Shown: piece after piece, positions 23,154 to 24,905 of the stretch
Position numbering within the stretch: the stretch's first letter is position 1
How the letters are laid out: the number at the start of each line of letters is the position of its first letter
DNA from: Candidatus Bathyarchaeota archaeon
Lineage (GTDB): Archaea > Thermoproteota > Bathyarchaeia > Bathyarchaeales > SOJC01
Direction: 5' to 3'
Assembly: GCA_026014805.1 (NCBI GenBank)
Contig: JAOZHR010000031.1
Location: 1-64,000, forward strand
Length of the DNA: 64,000 nt
Position numbers and translations under genes: made by a program
The notes under the pieces: generated by a model
The model's input: the letters and a program-made list of their open reading frames with translations, nothing else
Databases searched by the model: none
What the model was told of the DNA's origin: nothing

Positions 23154-23532
23154 AATCAACAGTGAAACTATAAATATCAGTTTCTTAAGCGGCAACATCC
23201 ATAGCACAATTCCCTTTTCACACTCTTAGAAATCCACCCAGAAGCAAGGGGGGAGGGGGTAGGTGATTAAGTTTCATTGATTTTTTTTGGGAGGTTCAAA
23301 GTATTCATGAGCGTGGAGTAGAAACTCAAACGTGTCAGTCCGTGGTAAGGCGTTGACGTTGAATTCAACCTCTAAGACTGTGCTGTTTCAAGAGTCTAGA
23401 GTGGCATCTCACAGCACTAGTACAGCCAAATGTGCTCCGTGTACACATGAGAAACAATTGCTAATGATGAAAAATGGGTACTGTTAAATATCAGTTGCTG
23501 CATCTCTTTCAAAACCAGCGGAGTGATTTCCA
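23154..23532. other. Intergenic region before eL14
   Basis: 379 nt with no coding frame I can support. It has a G-run (about 23250-23262) and a T-run with GGGAGGTTCAAAG after it, and short inverted repeats around 23380-23440. A structured RNA is possible but not shown. The right end carries the eL14 promoter. Confidence 0.4.
23484..23491 (+). promoter_or_regulatory. TATA box for eL14-cbf5 transcript
   Basis: TTAAATAT lies 42-49 nt upstream of the eL14 ATG after a gene-free stretch, so eL14 and cbf5 are likely transcribed apart from the main operon. Confidence 0.4.
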
Positions 23533-23871: not shown

Positions 23872-24905
23872 ATGCAAGGAATTAATGCACCGTGGAAGAT
23901 CAAAAGGAAGCTGCTAGTTAAGGCTGAAGAAAAAACCGATGCCCAATATGGTTGCAGGCCTGAAGAACGCCCTATCAAAGACTATGTTCGGCTTGGAGTA
24001 ATAAACTTAGATAAAACATCAGGGCCATCCAGCCACGAAGTTACAGCTTGGGTTAAGCGTATCTTAACCATCGCACATGCTGGTCATGGTGGGACCCTAG
24101 GGGCTTCCGTTTAGCAAGCCAGGGAAATCCCAAGGTGACTGGTGTTCTACCTGTTGCTCTAGAGGAATCCACAAAGGTGGTTCAAGCGCTTCTTTTAAGC
24201 GGAAAAGAATACATCTGTGTAATGCGGCTTCACCATTCAATGCCAGAAGAAAAAGTGGAAACTGTTCTAAATGAGTTCCAAGGAAGAATCTTCCAGAGAC
24301 CTCCGGTGCGGTCTGCTGTGAAGCGAAGGCTGCGGGTAAGAACGATTTACTACCTGGATTTTTTGGAAATCAGAGAGAAACACGTTCTGTTCAGAGTAGG
24401 ATGTGAAAGCGGCACCTACATTCGCAAACTTTGTTTCGATATAGGGGAGGTTCTCGGATGTGGCGCGCACATGCAAGAGCTTCGCCGGACTCGTGCTGGG
24501 CCTTTCACTGAAAGCGAGGGGCTCGTGACACTATACGACCTGTTATATTATGTTTCTGAATGCCAAGAAACTGGTAACGAAGAGAGTCTTAGAGAAATTA
24601 TCTATCCGATGGAGAAGGCTTTAGAACTCCTTCCTAAAATTTTCATACGTGATTCTGCAGTGGCTGCTGTTTGTCATGGGGCTTATGTAGCTGCACCTGG
24701 AGTTCTGTCTATAGAAACTGGGATAAAGAAGAAGGATGGAGTAGTTATTTTCACTCAGAAAGGCGAGGCAGTGGCTTTCGCGAGGGCATTGGCTTCATCG
24801 GAGCGAATTTTAAATATGGATCACGGGTTTGTGGCCAAGACAGTTAGGGTTTTAATGGATAGAAATGTTTATCCAAAGATGTGGAGCATGAGCAGCAGTA
24901 CTTAG
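23872..24905 (+). CDS. cbf5: H/ACA RNP pseudouridine synthase Cbf5, interrupted by an archaeal intron
   Basis: Catalytic subunit of H/ACA guide RNPs and tRNA Psi55 synthase. Coding parts are 23872-24100 and 24127-24905, together 335 aa; GGAGG stands before the ATG. Read straight through, the frame stops at 24114 just after AHAGHGGTL. Removing 24101-24126 joins ...CTA-G with AT-CCC-AAG to give GTLDPKVTG, where Asp77 (its codon split by the intron) is the catalytic aspartate. Exon 2 has KEYICVMRLHH, FQRPPVRSAVKRRLRVR, GCESGTYIRKLC and the C-terminal PUA domain (IFIRDSAVAAVCHGAYVAAP). Protein-gene introns at cbf5 are established knowledge in crenarchaea. Confidence 0.93.
24101..24126 (+). other. 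26-nt BHB intron in cbf5
   Basis: The flanks fold as a canonical bulge-helix-bulge. Outer helix GGGA 24091-24094 with TCCC 24128-24131; central 4-bp helix CCCT 24095-24098 with AGGG 24121-24124; 3-nt bulges AGG 24099-24101 and AAA 24125-24127; inner helix GGCTT 24102-24106 with AAGCC 24116-24120; 9-nt loop. The splicing endonuclease cuts after the second bulge base, predicting exactly the boundaries that restore the reading frame and the catalytic motif. The two lines of evidence are independent. Confidence 0.95.

Follow-up and report, generated by a model that had tools for sequence, protein, structure and literature searches.

A split cbf5 gene and its junction

The window, i.e., the whole 64-kb stretch of DNA analysed here, comes from the genome of an uncultured archaeon whose nearest named relatives are Candidatus Bathyarchaeota. 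It contains cbf5, the gene for an essential RNA-modifying enzyme (pseudouridine synthase), in an ordinary archaeal chromosome context, together with secY, a cytidylate-kinase-like gene, and two genes which we take, from our own reading of the sequence, to be ribosomal L34e-like and L14e-like. About 380 nt between the cytidylate-kinase-like and L14e-like genes (23154-23532) contain no convincing ORF and gave no Rfam match. The ATG of cbf5 at 23872 has AGGAGG just upstream, and the frame of exon 1 terminates at a TAG within an insert of 26 nt. Taking these 26 nt out gives a single 335-codon ORF containing GHGGTLDPKVTG, and the joined product aligns over its full length with solved archaeal Cbf5 structures (3lwo_A, E 6e-116). 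The insert, which has no ORF of its own, lies between the first and second letters of the codon of the catalytic Asp77, which is rebuilt as G/AT. The frame break, its repair by removal of the same 26 nt, and the splitting of the catalytic codon had been proposed in a sequence-only reading of this DNA, and all were borne out. The features of the locus are listed in Table 1.

Table 1. Features of the split cbf5 gene and of its junction in the window
Feature	Position	Strand	Basis or remark
cbf5 exon 1	23872..24100	+	ORF from ATG; 76 codons and first base of Asp77; DKCLD domain PF08068, E 1e-21
BHB intron, 26 nt	24101..24126	+	Unique strict BHB in the window; introns at the same position in relatives
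cbf5 exon 2	24127..24905	+	Last two bases of Asp77 to stop; part of TruB_N, TruB_C_2, PUA; continuous with exon 1 once the intron is removed
Outer helix, 5' strand GGGA	24091..24094	+	Pairs with TCCC 24128-24131
Central helix, 5' strand CCCT	24095..24098	+	Pairs with AGGG 24121-24124; covariation in relatives
5' bulge AG^G	24099..24101	+	Predicted cut after 24100, from BHB geometry
Inner stem GGCTT/AAGCC and loop	24102..24120	+	Fold and strict scan
TAG stop in exon 1 frame, inside intron	24112..24114	+	ORF reading; also counted across relatives
Central helix, 3' strand AGGG (intron)	24121..24124	+	Fold, strict scan, covariation
3' bulge AA^A	24125..24127	+	Predicted cut after 24126, from BHB geometry; AA^A in 86/145 junctions
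Outer helix, 3' strand TCCC (exon 2)	24128..24131	+	Fold, strict scan, comparison with intronless genes

The junction reads GGGA-CCCT-AG^GGGCTTCCGTTTAGCAAGCCAGGGAA^A-TCCC, with the intron between the carets. Its minimum-energy fold is a bulge-helix-bulge (BHB) with 4-bp outer, 4-bp central, and 5-bp inner helices and two 3-nt bulges. The fold energy alone is not unusual (z -1.05), and geometry and covariation were therefore used as evidence instead. A strict scan of both strands of the 64 kb (Watson-Crick pairs, 4+4+4 bp, 3-nt bulges, intron of 14-120 nt) returned only one match, the cbf5 junction, with borders identical to those that repair the frame; the geometry and borders described earlier agree exactly with both the fold and the scan. 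When G-U pairs were allowed, 85 and 73 matches per strand were obtained, which is the chance level, so no further introns are claimed in the window. An Rfam search of the window found nothing, and ARAGORN found no tRNA in it; as this program is poor with archaeal introns, a tRNA intron elsewhere in the genome was examined by hand.

Constraint on the junction and the stop rule

We compared 145 distinct intron-bearing cbf5 junctions, read from loci picked to cover families and not at random, with a reference of 150 intronless genes. Phase and position were identical in all 145 junctions. The central helix, which pairs exon with intron, was fully paired in 138 of them, while redealing the intron 3' ends among the sequences gave 90 on average and 100 at most (2000 shuffles, which ignore relatedness). 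The wobble base of the exon Thr codon and the opposite intron base covary (C-G, T-A, and A-T), as do the bases of the next pair in this helix (C-G and T-A). Differing pairings were observed in separate families and more than one pairing type within several families, and these several families indicate that the covariation is not a single inherited change. In intron-bearing genes, the flanking codons are skewed to GGG ACC CTA GAT CCC, which is not the case in intronless genes. For example, the codon CTA was present in 114 of the 145 genes with the intron as compared to 14 of the 150 without it, and all four pairs of the outer helix could form in 82/145 and 3/150, respectively.

The intron had been called very short in the sequence-only reading, a description that does not hold: 26 nt is not unusual, as crenarchaeal cbf5 introns, which are likewise small, were reported to span 16-44 nt (Yokobori et al., PMC2738675) and those of the relatives compared here span 13-67 nt. 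The longest of these (67 nt; L261, G558) has a long stem, and the shortest (13 nt) were found at L278 and L285.

Reading on from exon 1, we found an in-frame stop in 100 of the 145 introns, compared with 39 (sd 5) when the intron insides were shuffled; in 54 of those 100, the stop was the third read-through codon. All 40 introns with a length of 3n contained a stop, as compared to 60 of the 105 with other lengths (p 3e-8). The same was seen when similar introns were merged (29/29 vs 28/61, p 6e-8) and with looser merging (14/14 vs 18/31, p 0.004), while at the loosest clustering, with 16 clusters, the test loses power (p 0.53). None of the 145 introns could be read through to the full protein. 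Among 113 stopless full-length Cbf5 matches, none had an insertion of more than two codons, which indicates that no stopless 3n introns had been missed in that set. The reading frame is maintained across some of the cbf5 introns of crenarchaea (Yokobori 2009, PMC2738675), and the 3n introns of 39 and 36 nt in our set contain stops. It is plausible that ribosomes in archaea can reach the intron before splicing, and that extra residues at the active site would make the resulting Cbf5 detrimental or a waste of resources. Stopless 3n introns are depleted in eukaryotes, which is a parallel to the stop rule of cbf5. The rule suggests that translation of mRNA that retains the intron does harm, or else that it acts as an off state, a possible regulatory role.

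Splicing machinery and alternative explanations

The host genome has two EndA genes, L001 and L002, whose sequences suggest the roles of alpha and beta subunits, respectively. L001 is closest to the catalytic subunits of A. pernix and S. tokodaii (E 4e-43 and 3e-41, respectively) and retains the Tyr, His, and Lys residues; in an alignment, its Lys-bearing loop, YYGKPLGIPKPK, coincides with the stretch of the A. pernix enzyme that holds the Crenarchaea-specific loop treated in PMC12397907. L002 is closest to M. jannaschii EndA and has no catalytic His, as expected for what is presumably a structural subunit. Both subunit types, a crenarchaeal-type alpha and a beta without His, were therefore found in the genome that carries the intron, and the endonuclease of the host is predicted to be hetero-oligomeric and of the crenarchaeal type. 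RtcB is also present in this genome (E 4e-176). EndA was found in all 47 Bathyarchaeia genomes searched, 43 of which have two EndA genes irrespective of the intron, and two EndA genes are present in 12 of the 14 intron-bearing Asgard genomes. A tRNA gene of the host genome (contig 3, 10783-10874), probably for Glu(CTC), has a 17-nt intron with the same canonical BHB geometry as in cbf5. Several further tRNA matches in this genome span 92-175 nt, which suggests additional tRNA introns.

The feature in the window is almost certainly a pre-mRNA intron of the type known from archaeal cbf5, with predicted excision by the endonuclease and joining of the exons by a ligase. In the pathway that we infer, exon and intron bases of the cbf5 transcript would fold together into the BHB, both bulges would be cut by a heteromeric (alpha-beta)2 splicing endonuclease, a tetramer predicted from the two paralogous genes of the host, and a ligase, most likely RtcB, would join the exons and thereby restore the catalytic Asp codon. 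An unspliced message would end at the stop a few codons into the intron, so that active Cbf5 would be made from spliced mRNA only. The dependence on the tRNA splicing endonuclease that had been claimed earlier is supported by the BHB geometry and by the putative alpha and beta genes.

The assembly is a draft of 32 contigs, and the 26 nt could accordingly be an assembly or sequencing artefact that is absent from the real genome. However, the genus mate (G189, L084) carries the identical 26 nt, and many genomes that were assembled independently have diverged versions at this position; the possibility of an assembly error, which had been raised before, is refuted by these relatives, and an artefact has practically no probability left. 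A frame break with an in-frame stop is also what a decayed cbf5, broken by a small insertion, would present, but both exons are conserved to the end (exon 2 is 97% identical to that of the genus mate), cbf5 is a housekeeping gene, and the insert not only folds into a BHB but is found again at this site in relatives. No other full-length cbf5 copy was found among the matches listed in a protein search of the own genome, and we consider a pseudogene exceedingly improbable.

Ribosomes that skip the insert by translational bypassing, with no RNA splicing, would be another explanation, since the combination of a stop and a hairpin close to the junction might be reminiscent of a bypass element, and earlier work had mistaken crenarchaeal cbf5 for translational frameshifting (PMC2738675). 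The covariation nevertheless matches the BHB of the endonuclease with its 3-nt bulges, EndA alpha-beta and RtcB genes are present in the genome, and splicing of homologues at the identical site was demonstrated experimentally in Aeropyrum and Sulfolobus (Watanabe 2002, as described in PMC2738675), which makes bypassing very unlikely.

Distribution and origin of the intron

Previous reports on crenarchaeal cbf5 introns (Watanabe 2002; Yoshinari 2006; Yokobori 2009, PMC2738675) describe the same gene, the same site after the first base of the Asp codon, and a BHB that is cut after the second bulge base. The known hosts are Desulfurococcales and Sulfolobales, whereas the host here belongs to Bathyarchaeia, and most crenarchaeal cbf5 BHBs were called unconventional (PMC2738675), whereas that of the window is canonical, with a perfect 4-bp central helix. 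Archaeal tRNA and rRNA introns share the recognition structure, and presumably the endonuclease, but the intron of the window sits in a protein-coding message and its removal restores a reading frame. The crenarchaeal cbf5 mRNA was considered the sole reported archaeal BHB intron besides those of tRNA and rRNA (PMC7714728). The BHB sites in the 5' UTR of Haloferax HVO_1309 (PMC7714728) are likewise a case of the splicing endonuclease acting on an mRNA, which is predicted from sequence here; those sites lie in the leader, while in the window the coding sequence of cbf5 is split.

In remoter Bathyarchaeia, the introns at this point have diverged and differ in length, and the intron was found in 22 of the 26 sampled families (85 genomes with it and 40 without). 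Outside Bathyarchaeia, the intron was found in 32 of 45 further families of the phylum, four of which (p51, p63, p70, and p73) were called by eye from the broken frame; Culexmicrobium and a 'Thermoprotei' MAG (L055, L060) are named examples. The intron is also present in 14 genomes and absent from 65 of a phylum that we regard as Asgard, as it includes a Jordarchaeia genome; one doubtful contig was left out of these counts. This 4-kb contig (G751 contig 131, L402) contains an additional Cbf5 copy, interrupted by a 17-nt intron, while the main copy of that genome is intronless, and it was set aside as probable contamination. In addition, the Asgard Cbf5 proteins of L395 (G592) and L393 (G650), and also those of G652, G613, and G748, have an in-frame insert of about 500 residues directly after GTY(V/I)RKL. 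The insert contains LAGLIDADG-like stretches, ends in ...SN/C at its C-terminus, and resembles an intein within the pseudouridine synthase.

In the 2009 survey, the intron occurred only in Desulfurococcales and Sulfolobales, with none in Thermoproteales, two thaumarchaea, and Korarchaeum, and its gain was assigned to the ancestor shared by the two orders that have it (PMC2738675). An extension of the range beyond classical crenarchaea had been anticipated for this locus; Bathyarchaeia lie outside the orders of that survey, and the extension is larger than first guessed. A full-text literature search, which covered papers other than subscription ones, found no report of a cbf5 intron in Bathyarchaeia or Asgard. 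The intron of the window is confirmed as canonical and as belonging to a known kind, in a lineage for which that kind had not been listed, and its range in Bathyarchaeia, the wider phylum, and Asgard is new with respect to the searchable literature.

In an unrooted tree of 86 Cbf5 proteins, in which deep branches are weak, Bathyarchaeia group together whether or not they have the intron (support 90), and Asgard intron-bearers are found in several places, including two clades with intronless Asgard sisters (support 94 each). This placement argues against whole-gene spread between Bathyarchaeia and Asgard, and a transfer from the former to the latter is not supported, as far as the weak deep branches allow. 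We tentatively propose that the intron is ancient, was already carried by an ancestor shared by Thermoproteota (including Bathyarchaeia) and Asgard archaea, was repeatedly lost, and has otherwise been retained as a gate by which splicing controls the production of Cbf5, read-through versions being selected against. It is about as likely, though we would not presume it either, that real introns were gained independently many times at a hot spot, which competes with an early origin and not with splicing. The distribution is patchy, with at least 13 changes of intron state needed on the 86-protein tree, and the helix letters differ between Asgard and Thermoproteota introns. Against repeated gain, phase and position are always the same, a splice-side motif is shared, and 22 of the 26 sampled Bathyarchaeia families carry the intron. 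A hot spot that exists because intronless genes already hold the outer helix was tested and found weak, as the full helix is ready in just three of the intronless genes, which offers little pre-made target.

The wider pattern of range, exon constraint, and stop rule lifts this case above routine annotation. Many cbf5 genes in metagenome-derived genomes have probably been annotated either in two pieces or with a start downstream of the catalytic residue. The wide range, which takes in Bathyarchaeia, several clades of Asgard, and many other families of the phylum, reopens the question of the age and the cause of mRNA introns in archaea, and does so in lineages near the eukaryotes.
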